Positions 644 through 23,764 of a stretch of 64,000 nucleotides of DNA are shown here, one piece after another (the first letter of the stretch is position 1; each line of letters starts with the position of its first letter). This stretch comes from Burkholderiales bacterium (GTDB taxonomy: Bacteria > Pseudomonadota > Gammaproteobacteria > Burkholderiales > Casimicrobiaceae). The position numbers and the translations under genes were made by a program. Below the pieces are notes generated by a model. It was not told the DNA's origin. It saw only the letters and a program-made list of their open reading frames with translations, and made no database searches. The DNA is taken from the NCBI GenBank assembly GCA_016790165.1, contig JAEUPL010000001.1:294077-358076 (forward strand), read 5' to 3'.

Positions 644-655
644 GCGCCAAGCCGC

Positions 656-3453: not shown

Positions 3454-3502
3454 GGGGTTTCCTTCAGATGGGGTTGCGCCAACCTGCCCGCCAGAAACGA
3501 CA

Positions 3503-3912: not shown

Positions 3913-4051
3913 GGTGTTGCACTCACTTCATTGATACACATTGGCTATCGCAAATTGGCAGAAGGCGCCCTGGCCAACCATGCTTCTGTCTCTGTAGTGC
4001 TGTCTTGTAAAGGCTCCGGGCGGAATTTCCCGCATCTACCAGGAGCTATCT

Positions 4052-4294: not shown

Positions 4295-4398
4295 ATGCAC
4301 CACTGATGGATCATCGTGGCGGTCCACCGACCGCCACGGCACCCAATGCCCGCAAAACGCAGTACATTTGCAGGACAAGACCATTTGGGTGCACGACC

Positions 4399-4608
4399 AT
4401 GAAACGACTGAAGGATGAGACCTTGTCTATCCGCACTTCAGCAGACATCAAGCAGTTGCTGAAGCTGGCGGCGGCACGGGAACACCGATCCGTCGCGTCC
4501 ATGATCGAGGTGCTGGTTCTGGCCTACGCGCAAGAGCACGGCTTGGAAGCCGCGCCCGATGCGCCGGTCAACGCTGGGGAGCGGAAGAAGAAACATGGAA
4601 CTGATTGA
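4399..4608 (+). CDS. Small ribbon-helix-helix-like protein, first gene of the defence operon
   Basis: A 69-residue protein. The segment KDETLSIRTSADIKQLLKLAA followed by EHRSVASMIEVLVLAYAQEHG has the strand-helix-turn-helix pattern of ribbon-helix-helix (Arc/CopG-like) DNA-binding proteins. It ends in a basic tail. Its last 14 bases overlap the start of the helicase gene, which indicates translational coupling. A regulator at the head of a restriction-type operon would fit autoregulation (inference). Confidence 0.65.
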   Translation: MKRLKDETLSIRTSADIKQLLKLAAAREHRSVASMIEVLVLAYAQEHGLEAAPDAPVNAGERKKKHGTD

Positions 4609-7600: not shown

Positions 7601-7870
7601 CTGGACTTGGCTCGCACCTGCTGCAAGGGCCAAGACAAGCCGATCCCGCTGGCGACTCAGCTCTTCAACGAGGAGACAGCCGAAGGCCGACAGATGCAGG
7701 TGTACTCCGATCTTCTGGGTAAGGCGATTCGCTCCATGATCGAGGTGAAGGAAGAGAAGGATCTGGACAGCCTGTTCACCGGCGGCAAGACCACGGCACT
7801 GACCAACACCATCTCTGGCCTGGACGACTTCGAACTCATCACCTTCCTGGTGATCCAGGAGGCGGGATGA
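4595..7870 (+). CDS. SNF2/RapA-type helicase of a type III-like restriction cluster
   Basis: A 1091-residue superfamily 2 ATPase. I start it at 4595 (SD-like GGAAGAAGAAAC) rather than at the in-frame ATG 36 bases upstream. The N-terminal ~180 residues (KIAASCFSMYAFEALKAEL, LSFIFTSPTF) look like the PLD-like regions found in front of some SNF2 helicases, but I see no clear HxK motif. The helicase core has Walker A DSVGLGKT (about residue 275), motif II DESH (about 364), motif III SATPVN (about 402) and motif VI QRFGRVDRIG (about 826). The C-terminal 250 residues are unassigned. It overlaps the next gene by 4 bases (ATGA). In this setting it probably translocates on DNA as part of the restriction or defence complex (inference). 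Confidence 0.88.
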   Translation: MELIDNITRLLGDDLKATLKPKSRLKIAASCFSMYAFEALKAELEKIDELSFIFTSPTFTASEVTDKIRKERKEFHIPKLDRERSLYGSEFEIQLRNKLTQRAIAKECADWMRRKARFKSNRTKAPMQPFAVVQASGADTAYMPLHGFTAVDLGYQQGNAVSNLVNKMDEPAFAATYLSLFDQIWNDPEKLEDVTTQICEHIASVYQENSPESIYFLMLYNIFNEFLDEIDEDVLPNDRTGYQDTLIWKKLFNYQRDAATGIINKLETYSGCILADSVGLGKTFTALAVVKYYELRNKSVLVLCPKKLADNWLNYNRNLKTNIFAKDRFNYDVLCHTDLSRTSGESFGTPLNRINWGNYDLVVIDESHNFRNNDAYKDKETRYQKLMNKVIKEGVKTKVLMLSATPVNNRFADLRNQLALAYEGDSEILSKKLKTGKSVEEIFRGAQTAFNNWAKLPPEERTARAILDSLDFDFFELLDSVTIARSRKHIQTFYDTKDIGQFPERRKPLSYHSPLTARTDVMGFNDIFAQLSLLKLSVYAPVSYILPSRLKKYEEAYDTKVGGKGTLKQADREKSLQALMTVNLLKRLESSVESFRLTLSALRRNHQGTLAKIATFNQSGASASVGDLTEVLANLEGDDDELPILDDESGEIGGKVKISLGDMDLPSWERDLKGDLELIDTLLASMNKITPECDAKLQHLKAHVLEKIANPINPGNKKVLIFTAFADTADYLYANLAPVLQEAHGLHTAKVTGKGAPKSTLKKGYDFQELLTLFSPRSKEKAVVLPGEPAEVDLLIGTDCISEGQNLQDCDYLINYDIHWNPVRIIQRFGRVDRIGSPNTSIQLVNYWPDITLDEYINLKDRVESRMMIADVTATGDDNVLSAQANDVSYRKEQLRRLQDEVIELEDLTTGVSITDLGLNDFRMDLLNYVKEHGELGNVPNGMHAVVPAKPAMGLYPGVIFTLRNLNTGVNVNQHNRLHPYYLVYIDRAGHVVHDHTEVKRLLDLARTCCKGQDKPIPLATQLFNEETAEGRQMQVYSDLLGKAIRSMIEVKEEKDLDSLFTGGKTTALTNTISGLDDFELITFLVIQEAG

Positions 7871-8541
7871 GCGCCTTGTTCGCCTACCCCAAGCAAGCGG
7901 AGTTTGGCCGCGTACTGCCCAAGAACAAGATTTACGAGCACAGCGGCGCAAACACCCGCTTGAAAGACTTGTTCGTGGAGCAGGTGGATCAGATCGTCTG
8001 GCGCTACAAGCTGGCGCCAGAGACGATCAATCTGGCCGCCAAACCAGGCGTGCCGGAGATTCAAGTCTTCGCAATCCAGTTGAAAACCGCTGAGCTGCAC
8101 CACGACGTGCTCCGCTGCATCGACGGCGCAGTGCAATTCCCCATCATCTTTGAGCTGACTCAAGGCCAAGGAGCCGATGCCAGAACGCAGGTGATCGCCG
8201 CTTACAAGCGGCCCAGCGAAGCGGATGCTGCAAGCTGGGTTTGCTCCGAGTACTTCAAATCAGGATGGATGCCCGCCACCGCCGAGCGTGTGCCGCTGCC
8301 TCTCGCTCTCGATCTTGCTGGACTCTATGAGCAGGTGCTGCACCGACTTGTGCCGATAGCCCCGAGAACTCAAGAGCCTTTGCGCAACTTGATTGCGCGG
8401 ACAGAGGCAGTGATGACAAAGGCCAAAGAGGTGGCAAAGACCGAGGCCAGTCTTGCCAAAGAGAAGCAATTCAACCGCAAGGTAGAAATCAATTCCAACC
8501 TGCGCCAACTTAGAGCTGAACTTGAACAACTAAGCCGCTGA
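7867..8541 (+). CDS. DUF4391-family protein
   Basis: A 224-residue protein overlapping the helicase stop by 4 bases. The N-terminal two-thirds match the DUF4391 pattern I know from proteins encoded with SNF2 helicases and type III-like restriction genes (KNKIYEHSGANTRLKDLFVEQVDQIVWRYKL, IQVFAIQLKTAELHHDVLRCID, FPIIFEL). The last 60 residues form a charged helix, probably a coiled coil (KAKEVAKTEASLAKEKQFNRK, LRQLRAELEQLSR), suited to holding a complex together. The biochemical role is unknown. Confidence 0.8.
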   Translation: MSALFAYPKQAEFGRVLPKNKIYEHSGANTRLKDLFVEQVDQIVWRYKLAPETINLAAKPGVPEIQVFAIQLKTAELHHDVLRCIDGAVQFPIIFELTQGQGADARTQVIAAYKRPSEADAASWVCSEYFKSGWMPATAERVPLPLALDLAGLYEQVLHRLVPIAPRTQEPLRNLIARTEAVMTKAKEVAKTEASLAKEKQFNRKVEINSNLRQLRAELEQLSR

Positions 8542-8578
8542 AGCCTCTCGAAGGCAAAGCAGCGACTAGAGGAAATAT

Positions 8579-10603
8579 ATGGAAAAACTAAAAATGCATT
8601 CGACAAATCTGACCCAAGAAAACATCACCCGCATTCGTGATTTGTTTCCAGGCTGCGTGACCGAGGCCAGGGGTGAAGACGGCGAATTGAAGCTGATAGT
8701 GGACTTTGATCAGTTGCGCCAAGAACTCTCCGAGTCGCTGGTGGAGGGGCCTCAAGAACGCTATCACTTGAATTGGCCTGGCAAGCGGGAGGCATTACTA
8801 ACTGCGAATGCCCCAATCGCCAAGACGCTTCGGCCCCGCAGGAATGAAAGTGTGGACTTTGAGACCACGAAGAACCTGTTCATCGAGGGGGACAACCTCG
8901 ATTCGCTGAAACTCTTGCGGGAGACGTACCTGGGAAAGGTGAAGTTGATTTATATCGACCCGCCCTACAACACGGGTAATGACTTCATCTATGACGATGA
9001 CTTCTCGGTTTCAGCTGACGAGTTTCTAAAGCGATCCAATCAAAGGGATGAGTCTGGAAATCGCCTTGTGGCCAATACTGAGTCCAATGGTCGATTTCAT
9101 TCGGATTGGCTTTCAATGATGTATCCGCGACTGAAGCTGGCATCAAGTTTGCTGCGCGACGATGGCATTGCATTCATCCACATTGACGACAACGAAGTGG
9201 ATACGCTTGGGAAGTTGTGTTCAGAGGTGTTCGGCGAGGACAACTTTGTAAATATTATTACGGTCAAGACAAAGGTGGGAGGAGTTTCCGGAAGTTCGGA
9301 GGGGAAGAGCCTCAAGGACACCACGGAATTTATCTGGGCTTTTGCAAAGAACAAAGAGAGCTTGCAGCTGAATCCAGTCTACATAAAAACGAAGTTGTCT
9401 GATCGGATTCGTGCTTATGAGCAAGATGGGAAGAGTTGGAAGTACACCTCCATCATCACCAAGTTGGCAGACAAAGTTTTAATCAAGGAGGATGCCAACA
9501 AGGGTGCGCGCTTCTTCGGCTACAAGACCCTCGAAACAATGTCAATTCAAGCTTTTGCGAGAGCAAATAAGCTTGCAGAGGAAGATGTATATAACCAATA
9601 TGCGGACAAGATTTTCCGCACAACCAATGCCCAAAGTAGTGTCAGACAAACAGTCATCAAGGAGACAAGAAATACAGATTTCCCAATGTACGGATGTGAG
9701 TATTCACCGATAAAAGGACGTAACGAGGGAACAGTCATCGAGGTCCTATACAAAGCGGGATCCACGAGTGATCAAAGAAACATGGTCATGTTTCTTTCGG
9801 ATGTTGTTCAGAAGATTGATGGTGTCTATTACTACCTAGACAAGGTTGGGTCGCTTTGGGATGACATTGACTATAACAACCTCACCAAAGAAGGGAATAT
9901 CGAGTTCCCAAATGGGAAAAAGCCAATAAGACTTTTGCAGCGAATGATCGCACTGGCCTCTGCAGGTGATGATCTCATCCTCGACTTTTTTGCTGGAAGT
10001 GGAAGTACCGCGCACGCTGTTATGCAGCAGAACGCGGAAGATGGGGGTAATCGCCGCTTCATTCTGGTTCAGTTGCCAGAGAGTTGTGACCAAGAGGGGT
10101 TCTCCAAGATATCAGATATCAGCAAGGAGAGATTGCGGCGAGCAGGCAAGCAGGTTCTGGAGGGAAACTGCAGCGAGGGCTGGCGCAAGGATGTTGGTTT
10201 CCGTGCTGTGCAGGTCGATACGTCAAATATGTCTGACGTTTATTACTCGCCAGACCAGCATCAGATTGGCCAGATCGACCTGTTGGTAGACAACATCAAG
10301 GACGACCGCACGCCAGAAGACCTGCTGTTCCAAGTGATGCTCGATTGGGGCGTTGACCTTGCGCTGCCCATCGCCAAGCAGACCATCCAAGGCAAGGATG
10401 TTTTCCTTGTGGACGGCAATGCGCTGGTCGCCTGCTTCGATGGTCACGGCGGTGTCGATGAAGACTTCGTGAAAGAGCTGGCCAAGGTGCAGCCGCTGCG
10501 CGTGGTGTTCCGCGATGCTGGCTTCAAAGACAGCTCGGTCAAGATCAACGTGGAGCAAATCTTCAAGCTGCTGTCGCCTGCCACCGAAGTGAAGTGCATC
10601 TGA
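8579..10603 (+). CDS. Type III-like site-specific DNA methyltransferase (Mod)
   Basis: A 674-residue N6-adenine or N4-cytosine methyltransferase. Motif IV DPPYNTG (about residue 127) precedes motif I FFAGSGST (about residue 470), the beta-class order typical of type III Mod subunits and related enzymes. It has an AGAGGA ribosome site. Codons in the middle, roughly nucleotides 9220-9860, where the target-recognition domain should lie, are visibly AT-richer than the flanks, which suggests exchange of the recognition domain. It is 10 bp upstream of the Res gene. It is expected to protect self DNA and, with Res, to read the target site. Confidence 0.9.
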
Positions 10604-10613
10604 AGGGCTGGCG

Positions 10614-13600
10614 ATGAAACTCAAGTTCAAGACCCAAGCCTACCAGTCGGCGGCGGTGCAAGCCGTGGTGGACTGCTTCAAGGGCCAGCCACCCGCATCT
10701 GCGGAGGCCATCACCTATCGCATCGACCCCGGCCAAGCCAAGAAGGGCACGGAAGACTTGTTTTCCGACTCCGGCTTCAAGAACGCAGACCTGGCGCTGA
10801 CCGACCTTGCTTTGCTGGACAACATCCAGCAGGTGCAACGCGGCCAGAACCTTCCCGTGTCCGACGTGTTGGTGAAGAACAAGGTCGCCCGCGTCAACCT
10901 CGACGTGGAGATGGAAACGGGCACAGGCAAGACCTACTGCTACATCAAGACGATCTTCGAACTGAACCGCCGCTATGGCTGGAGCAAGTTCATCATCGTG
11001 GTGCCCAGCATCGCAATCCGTGAGGGCGTGGCCAAGTCGCTGGAGATCACCGCCGAGCACTTCTTAGAGACCTACCAAAAGAAGGCACGCTTCTTCATCT
11101 ACAACTCCAAGCAACTGCACCACCTGGAGAGCTTTTCTTCGGATGCGGGCATCAACGTCATGGTCATCAACGTGCAGGCCTTTGCCGCCCGTGGTGCCGA
11201 CAACCGCCGAATTTACGAGGTGCTGGACGACTTTCAGTCCCGCCGCCCGATTGACGTCATTAGCGCGAACCGGCCCATCCTGATCCTGGACGAGCCGCAG
11301 AAGATGGAAGGCGCGCAGACCTTGAAGTCCTTGGAGGAGTTCAAGGCCTTGATGGTGCTGCGCTACTCCGCCACGCACAAAACAACGCACAACAAGATTC
11401 ACCGCCTGGACGCGCTGGACGCCTACAACCAGAAGCTGGTGAAGAAGATCGCCGTGCGCGGCATTGCGGTGAAGGGGCTGGCGGGCACCGCCGGCTACCT
11501 GTACCTGCAATCGATCGAGATTTCGAGCAAGAAGCCGCCCGAGGCCCGTGTCGAGTTTGAGCAGAAGCTGGCAGGCGGCAACATCAAGCGCGTGGTCAAG
11601 AAGCTGTCCAAGGGCGACAACCTCTTCTCAGACGGCTTTTCTAACGGGCTGGACCAGTACCGCGACGGCTTCGTGGTGTCGGACATCAATGCCAACACCG
11701 ACACCCTTAGCTTCACCAACGGGCTGCAGTTGACGGTGGGCGATGCCACCGGCGACGTGACCGAGGCCGCACTGCGCCGCATCCAGATTCGCGAGGCGAT
11801 CAAGGCCCACTTCGACAAGGAGCAGGCCCTGTTCCAGCAAGGCGTGAAGGTCCTGACGCTGTACTTCATCGACGAGGTAGCCAAGTACCGCGACTACTCG
11901 CAGCCCGACGAGAAAGGGGAATACGCCCGTATCTTCGAAGAGGAATACAACCTGTACCTCAACGAGATGCTGGACCTGGACGAGACGGCTTACGTCAAGT
12001 ACCTCAAGGGCATCACCGCCGAGAAGACCCACAGCGGCTACTTCTCCATCGACAAGAAGACCAAGCGCGACGTTGACCCAGACATCGAGAAGCGAGGCGA
12101 AAACGCGGGCCTGTCCAACGACGTGGAGGCCTACGACCTCATCCTGAAGAACAAGGAGCGCCTGCTGTCACTGGACGAGCCGGTGCGCTTCATCTTCTCG
12201 CACTCGGCGCTGCGCGAAGGCTGGGACAACCCGAACGTGTTCGTCATCTGCGCGCTCAAGCACAGCGACAACACCATCTCCCGCCGCCAGGAAGTCGGCC
12301 GCGGCCTGCGCCTGTCCGTCAACCAGCAAGGCGACCGCATGGACCATCCAGCCATCGTCCATGAGGTGAACGTGCTCACCGTGGTGGCCAGCGAGAGCTA
12401 CAAGGACTTCGTTGCGGCGCTGCAGAAGGACATCAGCGACTCGCTGTCTGCCCGTCCGAAGGTGGCCGATGAAGCCTTCTTCACTGGCAAGGTGCTGAAG
12501 ACGGCCACCGGCGATGTGGAAGTCACCCCGCAGCTGGCCAAGCAGATCTACAAGTACTTGCTCAAGAACGACTACACCGACGATGCCGACCGCATCTCTG
12601 GTGCGTATCACGACGCCAAGAAGGCCGAGACATTGGCCGAGCTTCCGCCTGAACTGAAGCCCTATGCGGCCCAGGTCTACCAGCTGATCGACAGCGTGTT
12701 CAGTGCCAACCAGTTGCCCGAGATCGGCGACGACCGCCGCCCCAAGAAGAACCCGCTCAACGCCAACTTCGATAAGCAGGAGTTCAAAGCCCTGTGGAAC
12801 CGCATCAACCGCAAGGCGGCCTACAGCGTCAGCTTCGAAGAGGCCGAGCTGGTCCAGAAGGCCGTGGCCGTCCTGAACGACAAAAACGCGGGCCTTCGTG
12901 TGACCCCCTTGCAGTACACGATCCAACGCGGCGAGCAGGCCGAGGCCGTCACCTATGACGGCATCAAGTCCGGCGAAGCGTTCAAGCTCAAGGCCACGGA
13001 AACTGAGGTCAACCGCCTGTCGGTGCACTCGGCCGTCAAGTACGACCTGATCGGCAAGCTGGCCGAAGGCACGCAACTCACCCGCCGCACGATTGCTGAA
13101 ATCCTGAAGGGCATGAACGTCGCAGTCTTCGCGCAGTTCAAGACCAACCCAGAGAGCTTCATCGCCGAAGCCATCCGCCTGATTAACGAGCAGAAGGCCA
13201 CGGTCATCATCGAGCACTTGGCCTATGACCCGGTGGAAGACAAATTCGACCTCGATATCTTCACGGCCGGCCTGACCAAGCAGGACTTCAGCAAGGCCGG
13301 CGACAAGCTGCAACGCCACATCTACGACTACGTGCTGACCGACTCCAACATCGAGCGCGAGTTCGTAAAGGAGCTGGACACCAGCAACGAAGTGGTGGTC
13401 TACGCCAAGCTGCCACGCGGGTTCCTGATCCCCACGCCCGTGGGCGACTACAACCCCGACTGGGCCATCTCGTTCAAGGAAGGCGCGGTCAAGCACGTCT
13501 ACTTTGTGGCAGAGACCAAGGGCTCCATGTCCAGCATGGAGCTGCGTGAGATCGAGAAAACCAAGATCAAGTGCGCCCGCAAGTTCTTCGACGACATCAA

Positions 13601-13676
13601 CAAGAAGTTCGCCCCGGAGCAGGTCAAGTACGACGTGGTGGACAGCTTCGGCAAGTTGATGGAGTTGGTGAAGTAA
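10614..13676 (+). CDS. Type III-like restriction subunit (Res), DEAD-box helicase with nuclease domain
   Basis: A 1020-residue protein. Walker A METGTGKT lies near residue 100, the motif II equivalent DEPQ near 226, and motif III-like RYSATHKT near 249. The second RecA domain contains [20 protein letters not shown] and [11 protein letters not shown]. Near the C-terminus, NPDWAI (about 947) and FVAETKG (about 965) form the PD...ExK nuclease signature of type III Res subunits, so cleavage ability looks intact. It is expected to translocate or signal along DNA and cut when Mod-bound sites are unmodified. It lies 28 bp upstream of the SIR2-like gene on the same strand. Confidence 0.92.
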
Positions 13677-13704
13677 CTAGAACATCAGATTTCAGGGAGA
13701 AAGA

Positions 13705-15030
13705 ATGACAAAACACCTTCTGATCTTGGGCGCTGGCGTTGACCGAACGACCGGTATTGACTTTCCATTGGCCAACACCTTGTTGGCCGACGTGACTCGT
13801 TATCTCGATGGCCCCGGCAAGGACGTGGAGACGGCGCTGCGCGACATGCTCCCGGGACTGCGATTCAGCTTCAACAGCATGATCGCCCGTGCTGTCGACA
13901 AGATCGCAACCAGGGAGCCCCATGAACAGAAGGCCATGGTTCAGCGGGTACAGGACGCCATTGCGCATCTTGGCGCCGAACAAGACGGCATTCGCAAGCA
14001 CGGCGAACTCATCATCCGCTTGTTCAACAAGCTGGCCACTATCGCGCAGGAAAGCCAACTTGATGCCGACACCGAGGCCTTGATCCGCGAGGTGTTCCCA
14101 AAGGATGCCGATGAACTGATCGACAGCGACTCGATCCTCGACATTCACAAGCTCTCCCTGTCCGACACCTTCAAGACGGTGCTGAAGAGAACCTTGAAGT
14201 TGGGGCTCAGCTCCGAGCGCCATGAGGTTGCTGCTGCGCTGGGTGCAGACATGCTCAACATCGAAACGCTTCTGATCGAGAAGTTTTTGGGCTTCTACAA
14301 CGACAAGCCTGCCGACATCAAGAACTACCTGTACATCGCATGGGCGCTGTGGGCCTACCTCGTCGCAAAGCAGAAGGAGGTTCTGGAAGCGCATGCTGCA
14401 AGCCCGTTGCCCTTCTACGGCAAGGTGCCCGATGACCTCCGCGCGATCACGCTGAACTACACCGCCTTCCTGGAGCAGAGCCTCGGCGCCGCGAAAACCA
14501 TCTACTTCCATGGCGGGCTGAGCGATTACGTCCGCATGGATACACGCGACCTGCTTCCGGTTGATGACATCCTCAATTGCGACCCTGCGAAATTCATTCG
14601 AGAAGTCGTGACCCCGAACGTTGATGTCAGCGCCGATGACCTTCGACAGCAACGGCATGTGATTCCAGCCCTGGTGCCACCGCTTCGGTTGAAGCCGATT
14701 CTTTCCCACCGGTACATCGAGCTGTGGAGCCAAGCGTCAGATTGGGTCAAGCAGGCTGAACACGTCGTCGTCGTAGGATATTCGTTCAACAACGCAGATG
14801 AGCACTTCAACGACATCTTGCGATGCCACCCCGACCGCCGAATCGACATCGTGGTGCCGGAGGCAACGTCGACGCAGTTCGTTGCCCGGATGGAGAAGGT
14901 GTTTGGAACAGCTGCGAACCAGTACAACAAGATCAAGGTCAACGGCTTCGACGCACTGAAGGCGAAGAAGGTTAGATTGATTGCGGCGAAGGCTGGCGAC
15001 GTCAACCTTGCCGATCTGTTTGCAAGTTGA
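13705..15030 (+). CDS. SIR2-like domain protein, putative NAD-consuming defence effector
   Basis: A 441-residue protein with the hallmarks of the SIR2-like fold used by many defence systems: N-terminal LLILGAGVDRTTGIDFP (nucleotide-binding GAG at residues 9-11), TLNYT with the candidate catalytic Asn251, FHG with the candidate catalytic His269, and VVVVGYSFNNADEHF (354-368) at the C-terminal end of the Rossmann fold. Such domains in Thoeris, Avs, Dsr and prokaryotic Argonaute systems degrade NAD+. The insert of about 180 residues (60-240) is helical and unassigned. It has a good ribosome site (GGGAGAAAGA) and follows the Res gene by 28 bp, so it is probably the last gene of the operon. Functional coupling to the restriction genes is inference. 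Confidence 0.82.
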   Translation: MTKHLLILGAGVDRTTGIDFPLANTLLADVTRYLDGPGKDVETALRDMLPGLRFSFNSMIARAVDKIATREPHEQKAMVQRVQDAIAHLGAEQDGIRKHGELIIRLFNKLATIAQESQLDADTEALIREVFPKDADELIDSDSILDIHKLSLSDTFKTVLKRTLKLGLSSERHEVAAALGADMLNIETLLIEKFLGFYNDKPADIKNYLYIAWALWAYLVAKQKEVLEAHAASPLPFYGKVPDDLRAITLNYTAFLEQSLGAAKTIYFHGGLSDYVRMDTRDLLPVDDILNCDPAKFIREVVTPNVDVSADDLRQQRHVIPALVPPLRLKPILSHRYIELWSQASDWVKQAEHVVVVGYSFNNADEHFNDILRCHPDRRIDIVVPEATSTQFVARMEKVFGTAANQYNKIKVNGFDALKAKKVRLIAAKAGDVNLADLFAS

Positions 15031-15056
15031 TCGAGAAGTACCGCAGATCGACAAGC

Positions 15057-15866
15057 CTATCTGCCCAAGTCGCTGAGCACGTCTTCGATCACACCCTCGG
15101 GTATCCCTTGCACCACAATTGGTCCGGCCAGCGCCTCAAGCCTCCGCCGTAAGGCGTGATGTTGCGAGAAGCGCGCCAAGAGGGCTCGCATCATCGTGTC
15201 TCGGTACCGATCACCAGCTGGTTGACTTCGCCACGCCCGCGCCGAAGGCCACGGCCAATCTCGCGGGTGCGCCGTCCGCCAGTACTGCCCATCCAGAACA
15301 AATGGGTAAGCACTGGCCGGATGCAGCCAGCCGAACTCGTCGACCGGGGAATGGACGACGACGTGAGGAACCTCCGCTCGCGCGTTCTCCGGTGAGAACT
15401 CAATGGCACCGTCCAGGTCTGGCCGGTAACTGACGCTGCACCAACCCCGGTCCAGCAACCGAAGGCGCAAGAAGTAGTCCTTGCCGAGGCAACTCAGGTC
15501 AGCAAGCAAGAACACGGACTCCGCCTTTCCGAAGCGGCTGAGGCCTGACCACTGGTCGGGAGTCAGTGAGAGCCGGGGCTCGCATGCTGCGAAGAGCCCA
15601 TCAACATCCTTGGACGGCACCACGTCGAACCGGTAGCCCAACGTCAACGGCGCACCGCTGGACCGAACGCCAATGACCGTGCCAGTTTGGCAGCAGGCAA
15701 ACCGCAAGGGTGACCTGAACACCAGTGCGGAGTCCGCGAAGTGGATCGCCATGGCACCAGCCAGCAAGCTGTCGGCCACCACGCCAACCTTCTTGCCAGC
15801 CGCACGCCATGGCTGGATCAGGTCGATTCGCCTGATAGGCTGAATCAGCAACTGTTCCAGCAGCAT
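15057..15866 (-). CDS. Hypothetical protein, partner of the C39-like gene
   Basis: A 269-residue protein of unknown function. It has no signal peptide or convincing membrane segment, although the N-terminus contains short hydrophobic strands (VGVVADSLLAGAMAIHF). It is rich in Trp and Arg near residues 180-215 (EFGWLHPASAYPFVLDGQYWRT). It starts 6 bp after the stop of the C39-like gene on the same strand, with GGAGTGA upstream of ATG, so the two are co-transcribed. It converges on the SIR2-like gene with a 26-bp gap. I recognise no family. Confidence 0.65.
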   Translation of the reverse strand: MLLEQLLIQPIRRIDLIQPWRAAGKKVGVVADSLLAGAMAIHFADSALVFRSPLRFACCQTGTVIGVRSSGAPLTLGYRFDVVPSKDVDGLFAACEPRLSLTPDQWSGLSRFGKAESVFLLADLSCLGKDYFLRLRLLDRGWCSVSYRPDLDGAIEFSPENARAEVPHVVVHSPVDEFGWLHPASAYPFVLDGQYWRTAHPRDWPWPSARAWRSQPAGDRYRDTMMRALLARFSQHHALRRRLEALAGPIVVQGIPEGVIEDVLSDLGR

Positions 15867-15872
15867 GGGGGG

Positions 15873-16589
15873 TCACTCCGACGACTCGTTGCCTGTGCCG
15901 ATCTCGGTGGCGGGCATTTCGGAGGTACCAACGCCTGCGACATCGAGGGACGCCGGGTCTAAGGCCGGCGACACATCGCCGCCTTCAGCCGACCCAATCG
16001 GCGTGACCGGTGCCTTCTTCTTTGCGGCCGGTTTGGGCTTCCCGGCCGACGCCTTGACCACTGCCGTTTTTGGAGGCTTGGCCGTTGCCTCACCAGCCGT
16101 CTTCGCGTCAGGGCCCGCCGACTCGACCACTTCAGCCGCAGCCTTCTTGGTGCCCTTCTTGGGCGAGCCTGCTTGCTCAGCGAGAAGCACCGGCACGAAG
16201 GTGTCCAGCTTGATGCGATTCCAGTCCCGCCGCTCCTGCTGCTTGAGCCAGAAGCCGGGGTCGAGCACGCGCTCGTCGCCGTCCGGCAAACGCTCGAAGA
16301 CGACCAAGTGCGAATTGCCCGTGCTGGGCATCTTGCGCGTCTCCATGATCGCCAGCGAGGGCATGGCAGCCAGGCTCTTGAACGGTGCCTTCTTGCCATG
16401 GCCGATGCCGAAATGGGCCAGCAGCTTGAACAGATTCTCGTGGGTCGTCGTGTACGGGCCATCTTTCGGATAGCCCAGCTCCTTGATGGCGACCTTGCGC
16501 ACCGTTGCCAGGGACTGACCACTGACCATGGCGACGCAGGCCAAGCCGCAGTCCGTCAGCGTCTCTTGGGTTACCAGCTTCACAGCCAT
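15873..16589 (-). CDS. C39 peptidase-like protein with Lys/Ala/Pro-rich tail
   Basis: A 238-residue protein. The start at 16589 is fixed by AAGGAGAG upstream; the longer reading to 16679 lacks one. The N-terminal 120 residues resemble the C39 papain-like peptidase fold: TDCGLACVAMV holds the expected nucleophile Cys in the C39 context, HLVVFE the His, and VLDPG the Asp. C39 domains cleave double-glycine leader peptides in bacteriocin exporters; here no transporter domain is attached. The C-terminal half is low-complexity (KPKPAAKKKAPVTP and acidic Ser/Glu stretches) and probably disordered. The target is unknown. Sitting in a defence island suggests a processing or activating protease (inference). 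Confidence 0.68.
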   Translation of the reverse strand: MAVKLVTQETLTDCGLACVAMVSGQSLATVRKVAIKELGYPKDGPYTTTHENLFKLLAHFGIGHGKKAPFKSLAAMPSLAIMETRKMPSTGNSHLVVFERLPDGDERVLDPGFWLKQQERRDWNRIKLDTFVPVLLAEQAGSPKKGTKKAAAEVVESAGPDAKTAGEATAKPPKTAVVKASAGKPKPAAKKKAPVTPIGSAEGGDVSPALDPASLDVAGVGTSEMPATEIGTGNESSE

Positions 16590-16968
16590 TTCGTCTCTCC
16601 TTTGCCGATTCGGTTCATCTCTCGTTCCTTTCGAGGTTGAGCACGGCATGCAGCGGCGGGCCAGTGCTGCCAAGGGCACGGGCTGTCATGTGTGCGGTGG
16701 GGGATTTGCGGCAATGCCGCAGTGAGACGCGAGCGCAGCGGCCAGTCTGGTCGGTGACCGTTTTGGCTCGCGCTTTACCGTTTTAGCCGCCTGCGATCAG
16801 GAGTGGCAAGCGCCGTGTGACTTCGCCAGACGCGAGTTCTGGATGCCGGTCATCGTGGTCCTTCGCAAGGTCTCTCGCCCACAAAACGTGCGATTTGCAG
16901 ATCAACAAACTGCGCGCTTTTCGTTAACCGAAACCTACATTGGACCCATCGAAACGACGGAGCGATGA
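16590..16968. other. Intergenic region with operator-like repeats
   Basis: No gene seen. It separates divergent transcription units, the C39-like gene leftwards and the HTH gene rightwards. It holds a 7+1+7 inverted repeat (TGCGGCA A TGCCGCA, 16707-16721) and two direct copies of ACCGTTTTRGC (16757-16767 and 16777-16787). The last 60 bases are AT-richer and probably hold the HTH gene promoter. Confidence 0.5.
16757..16787. repeat. Pair of iteron-like direct repeats ACCGTTTTRGC
   Basis: Two 11-base copies differ at one base, and their starts are 20 bp apart (about two helical turns). They lie about 180 bp upstream of an excisionase-like HTH gene and about 580 bp upstream of a replication initiator gene, so binding by one of those proteins is possible. 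Two copies are too few to call an origin. Confidence 0.35.
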
Positions 16969-17190
16969 ATGAAGCAGATTGAGATCAACAACGAGTTGCT
17001 GACCGAGGCCCAGGCGGCAGCCTACTTGGGGCTGAAGAACCCCAAAACGCTGGCGGTCTGGCGATGCACCAAACGGTACCCGCTGACCTACGTGAAGTAC
17101 GGGCGCACGGTGCGATACCGCCGCAAGGACCTGGATGCCTTCATCGAATCAGGCGTGACCCGCGTTCAAGCGCCGGAGGTCAGCAAATGA
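16969..17190 (+). CDS. Excisionase/AlpA-like helix-turn-helix protein
   Basis: A 73-residue protein with the MerR-like HTH_17 pattern of AlpA/excisionase proteins: LLTEAQAAAYLGLKNPKTLAVWR forms the helix-turn-helix, and KYGRTVRYRRKDLDAFIES the wing and closing helix. A GGAGCGATGA ribosome site precedes ATG. These proteins bind short repeats near attachment sites or promoters and set integration/excision or replication of mobile elements. It is followed by a 140-bp AT-rich gap and then a replication protein gene, consistent with one element module. Confidence 0.85.
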   Translation: MKQIEINNELLTEAQAAAYLGLKNPKTLAVWRCTKRYPLTYVKYGRTVRYRRKDLDAFIESGVTRVQAPEVSK

Positions 17191-17247
17191 CGCCGTAGAC
17201 CTTGACCATTTTGCGCCGGGTCCTGGCGCGACCACACCGTGTAATAC

Positions 17248-17263
17248 ATGAATAGCTGTTCAT
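17248..17263. promoter_or_regulatory. Imperfect 16-bp palindrome upstream of the replication gene
   Basis: ATGAATAGCTGTTCAT pairs at 7 of 8 positions around a central AGCT. It sits in the AT-rich stretch about 100 bp upstream of the replication gene start, where an operator would be expected. The neighbouring HTH protein is the natural candidate ligand (inference). Confidence 0.35.
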
Positions 17264-17365
17264 ATTGGTTATGCAGATATGCCATGTATGACTTGATGAG
17301 ACATACCAGCTTATAGACCTACCACCACCAATATGGGTCTATGGCATGAAGGAAGTGAGATTGAG

Positions 17366-18403
17366 ATGTTGACTGAAAAAATGATTTTTGTGGATACCAC
17401 TGCCACGCAATTCAACCTGACGGAGTCTATGGACAGCGAGGCGTCGCAACCCAGCAATGCACGTTCGGGACCGCCCCGCGCCAGGCGCATGTCGGTTCCG
17501 GGCGACTTTGCCGATAAAGATCTGCACGCCCTTCACCTGCCCTCGAAGAATATCTTGATCGTGGAGGGCAGCGTCAACAACTACAAACAAGGCCATAACG
17601 TCTTCGGCTCGTGCAACGTGCCGGAGCAGGTGCTGAGTGCATTCAAGGCTACGCACTGCAAGTGGTGCTACGAATTCTCCGAACAGGAAAAGCGCCGAAT
17701 TGAAGCAGACGAAGGCATGACACTGAAGCGACTGGACGTTGGGGTGAATCTGGCCCTGCCGCCAGATACGCCGATCAGCCGCGTGCTGGTCGAACTGGCA
17801 CACAAGATGGTTGACGCGGGAATCGACACGTCCACCTATGGCTACGGCGAAACGGTCTACCGGAGCCAGCACTCGCAGAGTTCCTCGCACAAGTTCTATG
17901 ACAAGGCCAAGCAGTTGTACGACACGCGAGGCCTGCCGTCTAACTTGCCGAATCGGGACGCCATCATGGAGTTCGCCAAAACGGTGATTCGGTCCGAGAT
18001 CGTGCTCCGCTATCCAAAGATGAAAATCTTGGAGATGACCAAGCCCCGCGATTGGACCCTCGCCAAGCTGAAGGCCGAACTGGTCAGCGCCTTCGACAGG
18101 TTGCATCTCAGCGGGACAGTGCGTGCGGGTTTAAGCGCGCTGGACCTCCGCGACGTGAAGCACATGTACCGCACAACCTACCGCTGCTGGGAACACGGCG
18201 ACGATTTGCAGGTTCTGCTGGAACCCAAGGCCTACAAGCGTCAGGTGGCCTATTTCGAGTCCATCGGCTTCGACATCACGACTCCACCGCCCGTGAGCGG
18301 CGAGGAAATCCCGTTGGGCGACATCTTCACGCTGTCCAATGCGGTGGAACCGCCGCCCGAACTGTGGGGCGACGATGACGACGCGGAAGCCGTCGAATGC
18401 TGA
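17366..18403 (+). CDS. Phage/plasmid replication protein, gene II/X (G2P)-like
   Basis: A 345-residue protein resembling the replication initiators of filamentous phages and related plasmids. Supporting segments are IVEGSVNNYKQGHNVFGSCN, the charged helix after it, SSHKFYDKAKQLYDT (the conserved FYDK region), and RSEIVLRYPKMKILEM. Such proteins nick the double-stranded replicative form to begin rolling-circle replication. I chose the ATG at 17366 because AAGGAAGTGAG lies just upstream; an earlier in-frame ATG at 17333 exists. No coat or morphogenesis genes are nearby, so this is a replicon module of a mobile element rather than a complete phage. It converges on the next gene with a 51-bp gap. 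Confidence 0.78.
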   Translation: MLTEKMIFVDTTATQFNLTESMDSEASQPSNARSGPPRARRMSVPGDFADKDLHALHLPSKNILIVEGSVNNYKQGHNVFGSCNVPEQVLSAFKATHCKWCYEFSEQEKRRIEADEGMTLKRLDVGVNLALPPDTPISRVLVELAHKMVDAGIDTSTYGYGETVYRSQHSQSSSHKFYDKAKQLYDTRGLPSNLPNRDAIMEFAKTVIRSEIVLRYPKMKILEMTKPRDWTLAKLKAELVSAFDRLHLSGTVRAGLSALDLRDVKHMYRTTYRCWEHGDDLQVLLEPKAYKRQVAYFESIGFDITTPPPVSGEEIPLGDIFTLSNAVEPPPELWGDDDDAEAVEC

Positions 18404-18454
18404 CCAGGCTCGTGATGCGTCTATCGAGCGGCGTATCACCGCCCTGAAGCCCGG

Positions 18455-19630
18455 TCAATCTGCCTTCATCGCGAAGGCCATGGCGACGATCTGCCGGAAG
18501 GCGTCGTCGCTTTCTTCAATGTACTTCTCGCTGCGGGCCCGCCAATTCGGCACCATGGCGGACGAGCCAATGGCGGCTCCGATCAGGTCGATCAAGTCTG
18601 TGTTCTTGCGGCGCCGTTGGGCCGCCTTCCCCGCCGCACCCCCGGTCGGATGGTCAAGATGCCCGTAGTCAGCGTGGAATTGCCTGACGATCAGGTCGCG
18701 GTCCAGTCTCGGATTCAGCGTGCCTTGCGCTAATCGTGCTTCAGCGAGTGCGTCCCAGGTTCTGAGCCAAAACGGATGCAGTTCCACATGCTTGAGCAAG
18801 ACCCGGCCGACTTTCGCTGCCGCCCGAGGGGAGAAGTCGCCCGCGAAGTCTTCATCCCGAAGAACTGCCTTGCCCATCAACTTTCGGCCGGGGGCCGGCA
18901 ATGGATCAAGCGCACGCTGTGGGCGCTTTCTCGCAATGGCCTGAGCCTGCTCGAACTCTTGCCGAATTGACTCGACCTGCTGATCGAACGAGGAGTCCAG
19001 CCGGAGGCGAACCAGCACCTCGTTGGCGCGAAGGTAAGTGCTGATGTTTTGCGGGCGGTCTGCCGGTGCCTCGTTGGAGATGACCGAGACTGCCGCAGCG
19101 GGGGCACCGAACAAGCCGCTCTTGCGCAAGTGGTCGAAATGCGTGGCCGGGTTCGGCACGTAGGTGATCCCCCACAGGTCCATGACCCAGCGGTATCGGT
19201 TCATCACGAACCATGGCTGCCCCGCTTTCTCCTGCGCCGCGATATAGGAGCCGAAGGTCTCGTCCTGACCTGCAATGGGCGGTTCGCACTGGTGACCATG
19301 CAGCGGGCATGTTGCCCAGCCCGGAAAAGCCGGGGGGCTGTCGCTGGTGTAGTAATGCTTGGGACTCGACTTGAAAAAGCTGGGCGACTTGATGCCCAGC
19401 TGATCGAGTTTGCGATATTGCCTGCGGTAGCGCGGCATGCGCCGCAACAGTTCCCAGGCCAGACGCAGGTAGTCGTTGCGCGTGTAGCTGTCCAGTGGCT
19501 TGAGCGCCGGATACTGATCCTGCTTGCGCCAGTTGGCACCGGGTGCAAACAGCTCGTGCGACTCTTCGTCACCCGCCTCGAAGCGCAGCCACTTGGGGCG
19601 GTCTGCGGAGCTTGAAGGCGTGCGGGGCAT
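18455..19630 (-). CDS. DUF6499-like ICE-associated protein
   Basis: A 391-residue protein. Near residues 35-75 it carries a segment like the DUF6499 'transcriptional regulator' domain found on integrative conjugative elements (YTRNDYLRLAWELLRRMPRYRRQYRKL, then FPGWATCPLHG). The rest includes a second helical region (LRLDSSFDQQVESIRQEFEQAQAIA) and a basic C-terminal third. I start at the ATG at 19630. The longer reading begins inside the tRNA gene: its N-terminus MVVGSSPTRPT is a translated tRNA 3' half. The tRNA end is only 20 bp upstream and no clear ribosome site is visible, so expression may depend on read-through from the tRNA promoter. Function unknown. Confidence 0.6.
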   Translation of the reverse strand: MPRTPSSSADRPKWLRFEAGDEESHELFAPGANWRKQDQYPALKPLDSYTRNDYLRLAWELLRRMPRYRRQYRKLDQLGIKSPSFFKSSPKHYYTSDSPPAFPGWATCPLHGHQCEPPIAGQDETFGSYIAAQEKAGQPWFVMNRYRWVMDLWGITYVPNPATHFDHLRKSGLFGAPAAAVSVISNEAPADRPQNISTYLRANEVLVRLRLDSSFDQQVESIRQEFEQAQAIARKRPQRALDPLPAPGRKLMGKAVLRDEDFAGDFSPRAAAKVGRVLLKHVELHPFWLRTWDALAEARLAQGTLNPRLDRDLIVRQFHADYGHLDHPTGGAAGKAAQRRRKNTDLIDLIGAAIGSSAMVPNWRARSEKYIEESDDAFRQIVAMAFAMKAD

Positions 19631-19650
19631 GGGTCCAATTGTCTTATGAA

Positions 19651-19991
19651 TGGTAGGCCGTGTTGGACTTGAACCAACGACCAAAGGATTCAGGTTTGCA
19701 TGAGTTTCCTCATTCCCTGGACTATCTCACCACCCTCGCCGCGAATTGCTTCGCGCGTTAGGGTGCCGGGCGCTCTTGGGGTGCTTATCGGATTGGCTCC
19801 TCACACCCTAGTCTCTGCACCTTCTCGCCTACCGGTCCTTCGACCTGCCTTCGGCGAGCTTGGCTCAGGATTGCCGGGCCATTGACTGGCTGACGGTTTC
19901 CCTGAGTTCACCCGGTTTTTCCATTGCCGCTTTCACGGCAAGGTCACCATTTCGATGAGTCCTCTGCTCTAACCAACTGAGCTAACGGCCC
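19651..19991 (-). tRNA. tRNA-Ile(CAU), interrupted by a group I intron
   Basis: The 5' exon (19955-19991) begins GGGCCGTTAGCTCAGTTGG and ends with the anticodon CAT. The 3' exon (19651-19690) runs AATCCTTTGGTCGTTGG, TTCAAGT T-loop, then the acceptor strand and an encoded CCA. Together they give a 77-nt cloverleaf with a 9-nt D-loop and GTTGG/CCAAC T-stem. CAU with this body is the tRNA-Ile2 type, whose C34 is changed to lysidine by TilS so that it reads AUA. The acceptor stem pairs except for G1:U72, a wobble where C72 is usual. The gene lies at the junction of the accessory island and the rpoD side of the chromosome. Confidence 0.93.
19691..19954 (-). ncRNA. Group I intron (264 nt) in the tRNA-Ile(CAU) anticodon loop
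   Basis: It is inserted directly after the anticodon (after U36), the same place as the 205-nt Azoarcus tRNA-Ile group I intron. The last exon base is U and the last intron base is G, as group I splicing needs. Conserved core strings are present in order on the minus strand: CTCAGGGAAACC (19895-19906, P4 side), TCCTGAGCCAAGC (P6/P7 side), GGTGCAGAGACTAG (19808-19821) and GATAGTCCAGGG (19715-19726, P7 3' strand), then CAAACCTG before the 3' splice site. A GUGA near the 5' end can pair with the exon UCAU as the internal guide with a G.U at the splice site. There is no homing endonuclease ORF. The pattern fits subgroup IC3. Splicing is predicted, not shown. Confidence 0.92.
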
Positions 19992-20215
19992 ATTCATAAA
20001 ACAACTTCAACTCTCCGCGCTTTCAGCGCCCCAGAGGGACGCCGAAAAAAAACGCCATTTCTCCTTCAGTAGCAAGAACGTAGCAAGCGACCTGCCGCCA
20101 ACTTCCTCGGTAGCAATCCGGCGAAATCGCCAGAACGCTGTAAGTGCTTGATTTCAAAGCGTTGGAATCAAGCAACCAGTCCGAAAAAAGTGACGGTTAA
20201 TCGCTCTGGCCTCTT
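19992..20215. other. Attachment-site-like spacer between the two tRNA-Ile copies
   Basis: No gene seen. On the plus strand GTAGCAA occurs at 20069-20075, 20080-20086 and 20110-20116; the first two are spaced one helical turn apart, like arm-type integrase sites. A 9-bp inverted repeat (TGCTTGATT ... AATCAAGCA) spans 20145-20174. A GC-rich hairpin lies near 20017-20029. The stretch is unlike the flanking chromosome and reads as the end of a mobile element (inference). Confidence 0.5.
20069..20116. repeat. Three GTAGCAA repeats, possible integrase arm sites
   Basis: The identical heptamer occurs three times in 48 bp (starts 20069, 20080, 20110), with 11- and 30-bp spacing. It sits about 100 bp from the cut-off tRNA 5' half, where tyrosine integrases of tRNA-targeting elements normally have arm-binding sites. 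Confidence 0.4.
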
Positions 20216-20256
20216 GATTATGAGTCCTCTGCTCTGACCAACTGAGCTAACGGCCC
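20216..20256 (-). pseudogene. Orphan 5' half of a second tRNA-Ile(CAU) gene
   Basis: 41 bases match the tRNA from G1 through the anticodon CAT and the next four bases AATC, then diverge completely (AAGAGGCC instead of CTTTGGTC). It differs from the intron-containing copy at one base (C for T in the D-loop), and the upstream sequences of the two copies are unrelated. With no 3' half it cannot give a tRNA. The break falls in the anticodon arm, a classic tyrosine-recombinase target, so it is best read as an integration scar on the rpoD side. Confidence 0.85.
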
Positions 20257-20479: not shown

Positions 20480-23176
20480 TTACGCCTCGGTGACGAATCC
20501 CTTGAGTCGCTCAGCGCGGCTCGGGTGGCGCAGCTTGCGCAACGCCTTGGCTTCGATCTGGCGGATGCGTTCGCGGGTGACGTCGAACTGCTTGCCGACT
20601 TCTTCCAGCGTGTGGTCCGTGTTCATCTCGATACCAAAGCGCATGCGCAGCACTTTGGCTTCGCGTGGCGTGAGCGTGTCGAGCACTTCCTTGCACAGGT
20701 CACGCAGGCTGTCCTGCACAGCGGCGTCCACTGGCGTGAGCGTGTTGGTGTCTTCGATGAAGTCACCCAGGTGGCTGTCATCGTCGTCACCGATCGGCGT
20801 TTCCATGGAGATCGGCTCCTTGCTGATCTTCATGATGCGGCGGATCTTGTCCTCCGGAATTTCCATGCGCGCGGCGAGCGTCGGTGCGTCCGGCTCGATG
20901 CCCGTTTCCTGCAGGATTTGCCGCGAGATGCGGTTCATCTTGTTGATCGTCTCGATCATGTGCACGGGTATACGGATCGTGCGCGCCTGATCGGCGATCG
21001 AGCGGGTGATGGCCTGACGAATCCACCACGTGGCGTAGGTTGAGAACTTGTAGCCGCGACGGTATTCGAACTTGTCCACCGCCTTCATCAGGCCGATGTT
21101 GCCTTCCTGAATGAGGTCGAGGAATTGAAGTCCGCGGTTGGTGTACTTCTTGGCGATGGAGATTACGAGACGCAGGTTGGCCTCGGTCATTTCCTTCTTC
21201 GCCTTGCGCGACTTGGCTTCGCCAGAGGACATTTGCTTGTAGATGTCCTTGAAGTCCTGCAGCGGCAGGTTGACTTTCTTCTGCAGTTCAATCAGCGCTT
21301 CCTGGCGCTCAACCAGCGCCTGACGGTTCTTGGCAAAGGCGTCGCTGTGCGGCTTGGCGGCAGCGATCTCGCGGTCGACCCACTTGAGGTCCATCGACTT
21401 TTCCGGGAACAACTTCAGGAAGTAGTCGCGCGGCATGTGGCACTTGAGCACCATGAGCTCTTGCAGCTTGCGCTCGTGCCCGCGGATTTTCTCCACCTCA
21501 CCGCGCACTGAATCACAGAGTTGCTCGACGATCTTTGCGGCGAAGCGGATATCAGTCATCTCTTCGCTGATCTTCTTCTGCGCCTTGACGTAGCTCTCGT
21601 TCTTGTACTCACCCTTTTCAATGTGGGCGAGCAGCTTCGCGTGGTTCTTGCGAATGGTGGCGAACTTTTCGAGCGACATGGCCTTCAGCTTGGCGAGCTG
21701 TTCGGCCGAGATGGCGGCCGTGGCCTCCTCGTCTTCTTCCTCTTCTTCTTCGGCCTCTTCGTCTTCGTCACCGTCGTCGGCAGCAGCAGCGGGCGCCGGC
21801 TCCGGCGGTTCAAGTCCGGCCAGACCATCGACGATGTCGTCGACCACCGCTTCGTCCTTTTCGATCTTGTCGGCGAGCTCGAGGATCTGCGCAATGGTCA
21901 TCGGGCAAGCGGAAATTGCTTGCACCATGTGCTTCAGGCCGTCTTCAATGCGCTTGGCGATTTCGATTTCGCCTTCGCGTGTGAGCAGCTCCACCGTACC
22001 CATTTCGCGCATGTACATGCGGACCGGGTCGGTGGTGCGGCCAAATTCGCTGTCCAATTGCGAAATGGCCTGCTCGGCTTCCTCCGCCACATCGTCGTCA
22101 GCGACGGCCGACGCCGTTTCCGTAATGATCAACTCTTCGGCAGCGGGGGCTTCGTCGAACACCTGGATGCCCATGTCGTTGATCATCGCGACGACGCTTT
22201 CGATCGCTTCGGCGTCGACCAAATCGTCGGGGAGGTGGTCGTTAATCTCGGCGTAGGTCAAATACCCACGGTCTTTGCCGAGGGTGATCAGCGTTTTCAG
22301 GCGCAGGCGACGCGTTTCTGCATCAACGGTCTTGAATGGAGCGAGAGCATCCATGAGCGCTTGTTGCTTTTTCTCCAGCAACAACTGCTTGCGTGTCTTC
22401 GGCTTGCCGGTCAGCGGGTTGATCGCGACGGGCGCAGGTGTGGCGGCTGCCGCAGCCGCTTCGACAACGGGCTCCACTGCGTTTTTCGGTGGACGGCCCG
22501 GTTTTCCGGTCTTGACGGCGACCGGCGCCGGCGCGGCCGGCTGTGCCGCAGGTGCGACCGCTTTGGCCGGGGCCTTCACGGGTGGCTTCGCCGCAGCGGC
22601 GACCTTGGCCGGTGCTGCAGGCTTACCAGCTTTGCCCGCAATGGCGGCTTGTTTGCCGACGGTCGCCCCCTGGGTGGTTGGTGCCTTGATCGGGGTTGCC
22701 TTGGCCGACGTCTTGGCGACGATCTTGGCTGGAGTTTTTGCGGCGGGCGCCTTTGCGATGGCTTTTGCCACGACTTTCTTCGCGGCAGGTTTTGCGGCGG
22801 GCTTGGCGGTGGGCTTGGCGGTGGGCTTTGGCGCGACCTTGGCTTTTACCGCCGGCTTGGCCTTGCCGGTCTTCGCTTGCGGCTTGGTGACCTTGGCCGC
22901 TGCCTTTGCGGCAGGTTTAGCTTTGGTGGCGGGTTTGGCGCCCGGCTTTGCTTTGGCTTTGGCCGCGGTGGGGCGCGGGGCCGCTTTGGCCTTGCTCGCG
23001 GCCTTGCTCAAGGGCTTGGCCTTAGCCACACCTTTCGTCGACTTTTGCTTGGCAGCAGACTTGGGGGCTGCTTTGGGCGCCGCCTTGGATTTGGCGACGC
23101 CGGGTTTCGCGCCCGGCTTTCCGGCTTTCGGGGCTTTGGTGACTTTGCCGACGGGTTTTGATTTTGCTTTTGCCAT
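20480..23176 (-). CDS. rpoD: RNA polymerase sigma factor RpoD (sigma-70) with long basic N-terminal extension
   Basis: An 898-residue primary sigma factor; E. coli RpoD is 613. Region 1.1 begins near residue 275 ([23 protein letters not shown]). Region 2 has [25 protein letters not shown] and the -10-binding [20 protein letters not shown]. Region 3 has [11 protein letters not shown], and region 4 has [13 protein letters not shown] with [18 protein letters not shown], so the core is intact. An acidic low-complexity stretch ([18 protein letters not shown]) lies in the non-conserved region. The first 270 residues are almost only Lys, Ala and Pro, histone H1-like, with an AT-hook-like GKPGRPPKN near 225. 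The start at 23176 leaves out a weakly supported 19-residue upstream extension. Confidence 0.97.
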
Positions 23177-23764
23177 GCGTGATGAGTTCCATTTACGTGC
23201 GACCGGTGCCCCGGCGGGTTGCGCGCAGGGCACCGCGCGCGTGCGCGGTCAACAATATGCCGGGCGTACGGGCGCGCAAGCGCTCAGCAGGCCCTTGTCC
23301 CAAACTTGCGCAGTAGTGCAACGGCGGTGGCGAATCTTGCCGGGTGCCGGGCGGGCGCGCCCGTTGATAGGGCATCACAAGAAATGGGGGTAACCTTTAA
23401 TTTTACCAGCGACGTGCCGCTTATTTGTGCAACGGCGGCCGGCGACGATCCGCAATCGGGCGCCAAGGCGTGATCGGGCGCGTATGACATCGAAAAATGA
23501 CGCCGCGCGATCAGCTTTTTGCGTGTATCGACCTATCAGCAGTCAGCTAAGCGGGAAAATTGTAAAAGTCGACTTTAGTCATTTTATCGCCGCAAAGGCC
23601 TGTATACGGTTGTTGCGGTGCATAAGCTGTATCGTTTGGCGGCGTACCCGCCACTCGCGCCGCAATCCAGGCGCTTGGTCGCACTGCGGCTGCAACGCCG
23701 GGCCGAAACCACTAACGTTGCGCCACCAGATTACAAAGGGTGGGCGCTGGCCCGGTAGTGGTTG
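23177..23764. other. Divergent intergenic region between rpoD and the efflux operon
   Basis: 588 bp without a convincing gene. Antisense frames here continue the rpoD shadow. It must hold the rpoD promoter(s) and the promoter of the RND operon. A perfect 12-bp palindrome, AAAGTCGACTTT (23565-23576), lies in a local AT-rich patch and is a possible repressor site. The dnaG gene often found before rpoD is not here. Confidence 0.5.
23565..23576. promoter_or_regulatory. Perfect 12-bp palindrome AAAGTCGACTTT
   Basis: It lies about 190 bp upstream of the RND adaptor gene in an AT-rich stretch. It could be an operator for the pump. No TetR/MarR-type regulator is encoded nearby, so this is a weak call. 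Confidence 0.3.

Follow-up and report, generated by a model that had tools for sequence, protein, structure and literature searches.

An intron-split tRNA-Ile(CAU) gene at the end of an integrative element

The window analysed here is a stretch of 64,000 nucleotides (nt) from a Burkholderiales bacterium of the Casimicrobiaceae (contig JAEUPL010000001.1, our C18, positions 294,077 to 358,076), and positions are counted from its first letter. Its minus strand carries a tRNA-Ile(CAU) gene interrupted by a group I intron, close to one end of a 22.7-kb integrative element that appears to have split the host's own, intronless tRNA-Ile(CAU) gene (Table 1). A first-pass annotation had proposed that two exons forming a full tRNA are separated here by a 264-nt group I intron with U and G at its 5' and 3' splice sites, and boundary mapping, a covariance model and folding all agree with it. 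The Rfam group I model RF00028 matches the intron along the full length of the model (1–253 of 253), scoring 69.5 bits where the gathering score is 50 (E value 1.4e-15), and a scan of the genome with this model at E 0.001 returned no other match. A U closes the 5' exon and a G closes the intron (...CCTG). The precursor folds with a z-score of -4.84 relative to 100 shuffles, none of which folds as well, and its predicted P1 hairpin pairs UCAUC with GGUGA, placing a U-G pair (precursor U37-G45) at the 5' splice site. The intron belongs to the known tRNA group I kind. Its longest stop-free stretch on either strand is 64 codons, which leaves no room for an endonuclease gene, as the first reading had it. 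The tRNA-Ile intron of Azoarcus is likewise not known to encode an endonuclease; taking that intron to be ~205 nt long and to follow the CAU anticodon, the two presumably share one insertion site, the window intron being ~60 nt longer.

ARAGORN calls the spliced 77-mer a tRNA with anticodon CAT and labels it tRNA-Met. We take the gene to be tRNA-Ile2 and not a methionine tRNA by its sequence, a distinction that ARAGORN cannot make; tRNA-Ile2, the lysidine tRNA, needs TilS, which is present in the genome. The warning that gene finders might miss this gene proved apt, as ARAGORN reports 0 tRNAs in the unspliced window and, with its intron option, recovers the 264-nt intron, misreads the anticodon as CTG and calls a tRNA-Gln. 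The sole tRNA-Ile(CAU) gene of a genome can thus appear absent, or be called tRNA-Gln, in an annotation. Another intact tRNA-Ile(CAU) gene would have told against the first reading; none was found in the assembly, which is 91.88% complete, and both full-length matches are tRNA-Lys genes. The element-borne gene is the sole complete tRNA-Ile(CAU) found in the assembly and presumably its only AUA reader, and its intron-bearing precursor would have to self-splice.

The resident gene is split at a 9-nt core

Searching the genome with an intronless tRNA returned two intronless partial copies, on the same strand of C18 and in order, one holding nt 1–41 and the other nt 33–77 of the gene. The two halves overlap by exactly 9 nt, CTCATAATC, and when joined there give a perfect 77-nt intronless tRNA; neither junction carries a complete tRNA. 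The rebuilt resident tRNA equals the element-borne tRNA at 76 of 77 nt, and since the sole difference, at nt 21, lies outside the anticodon arm, the core in the element-borne gene is broken by the intron alone. The replacement gene sits 224 nt inside the junction, oriented as the host gene.

The rebuilt empty site, in which the tRNA occupies positions 225–301 of the query, finds unbroken counterparts in other genomes of the same genus: upstream in G049 (query 119–308) and downstream in G174 and G299 (query 221–427). Two more (G136, G209) have an intact intronless tRNA after rpoD, and in G239 the tRNA after rpoD is intact yet divergent (73%). The matched halves and the same-genus empty sites together argue that the element split the resident gene and that the intron-bearing gene arrived with the element. 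The first-pass identification of the intron and of its host gene therefore stands, and its context was incomplete, the gene being part of an integrated element that split a resident tRNA.

The ends of the element carry a short repeat, TTGCTAC, present five times in the whole element, always within 320 bp of an end and in one orientation, with three copies at the tRNA end and two at the integrase end. A thousand shuffles of each end piece gave means of 0.024 and 0.029 copies and maxima of 1 and 2. The repeats look like arm sites of the integrase, which would bind them.

An extra tRNA-Ile 3' half (nt 40–77; C18:291424-291461) lies 90 nt downstream of the first one and is an older scar at the same site. 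Comparable 3' halves lie 131 and 129 nt beyond the intact tRNA in G136 and G209 (L281, L282). These relatives have such a half and no element, which rules out a second intron-borne integration as the origin of the extra one.

Related elements in other genomes

A scan of our genome collection for a tRNA 5' half followed by anything but A37 gave at least 116 stretches. Of the 80 listed and taken further, 47 showed a matching 3' exon at a distance of more than 150 nt, and 44 came with 300 nt or more of sequence upstream. Among these listed matches, an intronless 5' half lies 197–520 nt upstream, on the same strand, at 6 of the 44 checkable loci (L022 in G001, L023 in G002, L029 in G003, L045 in G006, L049 in G007 and L054 in G008), with scores of 18–37, against at most 11 for the other loci and at most 12.5 for 880 shuffled controls. 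A further locus with too little upstream sequence for this test (L071 in G009) also ends in a 5' half.

Both junctions were recovered in G001 and G009, with a 9-nt core identical to that of the window element. In each an integrase lies beside the 3' half, with 67% identity to ours in G001 and 37% over 146 amino acids (aa) in G009, and the ends of the G001 element again hold three and two copies of TTGCTAC, with identical spacing at the tRNA end. In G001 the host halves differ from the element tRNA at 7 of 77 nt, and in G009 they differ as well; the element tRNA is therefore no local duplicate there. Local duplication is accordingly rejected in these two genomes, and in the window, with its 1-nt difference, sequence alone is insufficient to reject it. 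G007 has a 119-aa integrase fragment (88%), and G002 has AbiE and a recombinase fragment (~95%), with no integrase seen. The window intron and those of G002 and G007 are 95–98% identical, and the split tRNA adjoins rpoD in the window genome and hrcA in the other two, which indicates that the tRNA itself is the target. Between G002 and G007 the element DNA is 87% identical over 1203 bp and the host DNA beyond hrcA 65–70% (67% over 2406 bp); the G002 5' remnant has decayed to 79%.

A 3.0-kb insert in G008, recorded as Elusimicrobia (L365, Elusimicrobia NORP122, 4655–7732), has both junctions on one contig, a different core of 18–19 nt, a split tRNA, an intron-bearing replacement and a PIN-domain gene (PF16289); no integrase was seen in it. 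No 3' half turned up in those stretches of G006 and G003 that were searched, which for G003 came to ~54 kb of contig, its end included. We dropped G003 (recorded as Akkermansia, with a Limnohabitans-like flank) as a full parallel and kept it as incomplete: its 5' remnant shares only two nt past the splice site, and its recombinase (L275 6045–7448) is of the large serine type, with Resolvase and Recombinase domains (PF00239, PF07508). At the same locus in Limnohabitans, where the upstream 400 nt are 87% identical, there is an intron-bearing tRNA and no remnant.

These comparisons bear on two other explanations of the locus. The intron-bearing gene could itself be the resident tRNA, with the intronless halves as unrelated scars of duplications or classical islands. 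The further 3' half 90 nt on, the similar scars in G136 and G209, the many genomes with the intron and no remnant nearby, and the L029 remnant, which equals the 5' exon of its own intron gene as after a duplication, all speak for this. The halves nevertheless share the exact 9-nt core, match the empty site of relatives on both sides, bracket an integrase and arm-like repeats, and differ from the intron gene in G001 and G009, and we regard this explanation as very unlikely. Even harder to credit is an artefact of a draft assembly: the genome is in 41 contigs at 91.88% completeness and the element ends of G001 and G009 fall on different contigs, but here a single 358-kb contig holds both junctions, and 5' junctions of this kind are seen again in several separately assembled genomes.

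Distribution of the intron and use of the core by other elements

In an even sample of the class the intron pattern occurs in 24 of 369 genomes, and all 23 other than our own have a matching 3' exon 232–280 nt away. The order sample gave the pattern in 5 of 399 genomes, one of them without a 3' exon, and a remnant in one of the remaining four, which is the present genome; such pattern scans overlook introns that start with A. Most of the tRNA-Ile introns seen thus belong to genes with no remnant, and the association with elements is as yet mainly betaproteobacterial. A midpoint-rooted tree of 52 intron sequences has one betaproteobacterial clade (support 0.84) in which element-borne introns stand among resident ones. 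This would be expected if elements spread the intron and it later became fixed, but also if capture ran in the reverse direction.

Integrase relatives were found in 7 of the 399 genomes of the order at 1e-60, all but our own with 41–46% identity. No tRNA-Ile halves were found in the 3–4 kb around each of the loci other than our own, so that they offer no intron-independent control. Plasmids yielded only integrases below 60% identity, and the integrase scan of viral contigs a single stretch, unsupported by tblastn. The 5' remnant pattern occurs in nine stretches of viral contigs; four look by eye like complete tRNAs, and in the other five records, possibly fragments, a second CAU tRNA of this pattern was not found.

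In viral contigs, 52 stretches contain a tRNA 3' half that begins with CTCATAATCC and has a base other than A before it. Among the viral sequences inspected, a tRNA D-arm precedes the 3' half only in L298, and the others therefore look like prophage or phage attachment (att) sites. Plasmid 1 of Polaromonas sp. JS666 (L398 2490–2540) also holds a tRNA-Ile 3' half starting at CTCATAATCC, resembling a classical attP for this site. Since the core is used by other elements, an intron there could block several integrases.

Group I introns are also found in viral tRNA genes. Klebsiella phage KP13-7 (L399 1201–1500) has an unannotated tRNA(CAU) gene with a group I intron (104.1 bits), and 6 of 12 viral loci scanned exceed the group I gathering score (L225, L178, L192, L176, L231, L169). 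A 2014 review (PMC3984707) places all phage introns observed to date in protein genes. In L279 (G424:C84, 8063–7731) an insert of ~250 nt interrupts a tRNA-Ile in its anticodon loop, a few positions ahead of the site seen here; it shows group I-like strings by eye and scores 15.4 bits with RF00028 (E value 0.18), and is perhaps a divergent intron at another site.

Gene content of the element

Beyond its ends, the element carries defence cargo, a replication gene and a second recombinase (Table 1). The product of the gene adjoining the tRNA has relatives of 40% identity in G001 and of 81% over 81 aa in G007. Among the 13 element proteins checked by Pfam and/or PADLOC, the Phage_CRI replication gene was the only phage-type gene seen. 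A 441-aa protein encoded after the type III system (13705–15030) has weak SIR2-like (E value 3e-4) and AbiH-like (E value 9e-4) similarity and no Pfam match, and is possibly a new defence gene.

Table 1. Features of the integrative element and its insertion site. Positions are those of the window except where contig C18 is named.
Feature	Position	Strand	Basis or remark
tRNA-Ile(CAU), element-borne, 3' exon, 40 nt, CCA end	19651..19690	-	boundary mapping
Group I intron, 264 nt, after U36, within the 9-nt att core (CTCAT^AATC)	19691..19954	-	RF00028, fold, boundaries
tRNA-Ile(CAU), element-borne, 5' exon, 37 nt, last bases the anticodon CAU	19955..19991	-	boundary mapping
Element end, 224 nt, between junction and replacement tRNA	19992..20215	-	
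Arm-like repeats TTGCTAC, three copies in the 224-nt element end	20069-20075, 20080-20086, 20110-20116		
Resident tRNA-Ile(CAU) 5' half, nt 1-41; host/element junction	20216-20256 (C18:314292-314332)	-	tRNA search
att core, last 9 nt of the resident 5' half, CTCATAATC	20216-20224	-	overlap of halves
Resident tRNA-Ile(CAU) 3' half, nt 33-77, beyond the window	C18:291551-291595	same strand as 5' half	tRNA search
rpoD (host), upstream neighbour of the resident tRNA	20480..23233	-	Sigma-70 regions 1.1 to 4
Integrative element, 22.7 kb (whole C18:291587-314300), part inside the window	1..20224	.	
P4-like tyrosine integrase, beyond the window, beside the 3' half	C18:291798-293147		Pfam PF00589 + PF13356; arm-binding domain present
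AbiEii, truncated by the window edge; AbiEi beyond the window	20..643	+	
Second tyrosine recombinase, 330 aa	1971..2963	-	fragments in G002, G007
HKD+Snf2-type helicase, defence cargo	4559..7870	+	
Type III DNA methyltransferase	8579..10603	+	
Type III restriction enzyme	10614..13676	+	
Phage_CRI-type replication protein	17333..18403	+	PF05144
Element gene adjoining the tRNA, transcriptional regulator-like domain	18455..19633	-	PF20109, 24.2 bits, cut-off 23.8

Proposed role of the intron

The explanation that we favour, and hold to be probable though far from assured, is that the element split the resident tRNA and supplied a replacement whose intron shields the att core. The tyrosine integrase would recombine attP with the chromosomal tRNA-Ile(CAU) gene at its anticodon loop, over the 9-nt core. 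Because attP appears to have only the core in common with its target, integration would in all likelihood leave nt 1–41 and nt 33–77 at the two ends and would not rebuild the gene. The complete replacement tRNA-Ile(CAU) brought by the element would compensate for the loss of this rare but essential tRNA, and the group I intron after U36 would self-splice from its precursor. Since the intron interrupts the att core, its DNA holds no intact target, and the replacement gene should be unusable as attB, both for the integrase of the element itself and for other integrases that use this site; splicing would restore the core sequence in RNA only. The anticodon arm of the replacement is the same as the host's, and a replacement without the intron would therefore offer the element's integrase a complete, directly oriented target at a distance of 224 nt from the junction. 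Should the att site then decay, the intron gene would become the permanent tRNA gene, and such decay in place could explain the scattered endonuclease-free tRNA-Ile introns. Shielding may have been selected for. Our broader proposal, that a self-splicing intron shields the element's own target from itself and from competitors and that decaying elements spread endonuclease-free tRNA introns between bacteria, is tentative and falls somewhat short of being probable.

The findings that weigh against the favoured explanation are of several kinds. tRNA-Ile introns without a remnant are the majority, at 38 of the 44 checkable listed loci, and within 700 nt no clear remnant was found in any of the 23 other class-sample genomes (best score 13.0, against controls of up to 13.5). 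Because the relatives were detected by means of the intron, they give no unbiased estimate of the share of split and unsplit replacement genes. A search for 5' remnants that ignores the intron, with a pattern requiring both an exact core end and a GG stem, found 1 of 399 genomes, our own. For the replacement gene, no promoter emerged from a consensus scan. In G001, and likewise in G009, the two junctions are on different contigs, and the 5' half of G009 begins at nt 8. TTGCTAC was picked by eye after being seen, and other ends hold fewer copies (none in the G009 pieces, two in G002, one in G007). Finally, anticodon loops are favoured sites of introns and of integrase crossovers alike, and the coincidence of intron and core is therefore no proof of selection.

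With the element and replacement real, the intron could still be incidental, the captured tRNA-Ile(CAU) having already contained a common intron and shielding never having been selected. This seems to us rather doubtful, though it is a possibility of real weight. Remnant-free tRNA-Ile introns are found in many gammaproteobacteria, the mixed betaproteobacterial clade is as expected of it, and the phage tRNAs of tRNA-dependent lysogeny are described without introns by Guerrero-Bustamante and Hatfull (2024, PMC10865867). Yet such introns are rare in the order (4 of 399 genomes), and in the window and in G001 the exon sequence on either side of the core is identical to the host target; left unshielded, such a copy would therefore present a complete target beside attP.

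Comparison with known systems

Our literature searches among open-licence papers found no report that combines a bacterial group I intron with tRNA replacement. Azoarcus likewise has a small group I intron in tRNA-Ile(CAU), and pre-tRNA-Ile crystal structures are mentioned for it (PMC3984707); the window gene sits on an integrative element beside a split resident gene. Classical tRNA-targeted islands (Islander, PMC4383910) also use a tyrosine integrase and a tRNA target, but a classical island regenerates its target gene at one junction, whereas neither junction does so here.

A further parallel is tRNA-dependent lysogeny, in which a tyrosine integrase uses an attB in a tRNA gene with a core of ~10 bp, the tRNA is not restored, and the phages encode a tRNA of the same isotype and have putative arm-type sites (PMC10865867). 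Shared here are the tyrosine integrase, the 9-nt core, the tRNA that is not rebuilt and the complete tRNA of the same isotype. The differences are the defence cargo and a tRNA-Ile that is almost identical to the host's and is interrupted within the core by a ribozyme; in that paper the word intron appears once, in the title of a reference.

For archaea, Randau and Söll hypothesized that a tRNA intron blocks integration (via PMC4390854 and PMC4033280), and a model for Caldiarchaeum tRNA-Thr lets an element bring an intron-bearing tRNA (PMC3293823). In these archaeal proposals the introns are cut by an endonuclease and an intron is gained at position 24/25 through attP x attB recombination (PMC4390854, PMC3293823), whereas the intron described here is a bacterial one of group I that lies inside a mapped core, in a replacement gene separate from the target. 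The finding thus joins phage tRNA replacement, the archaeal proposal of introns as guards and the unexplained scatter of endonuclease-free bacterial tRNA introns, and all three lines become testable in one small system of a 9-nt core, one integrase, one tRNA and one ribozyme.
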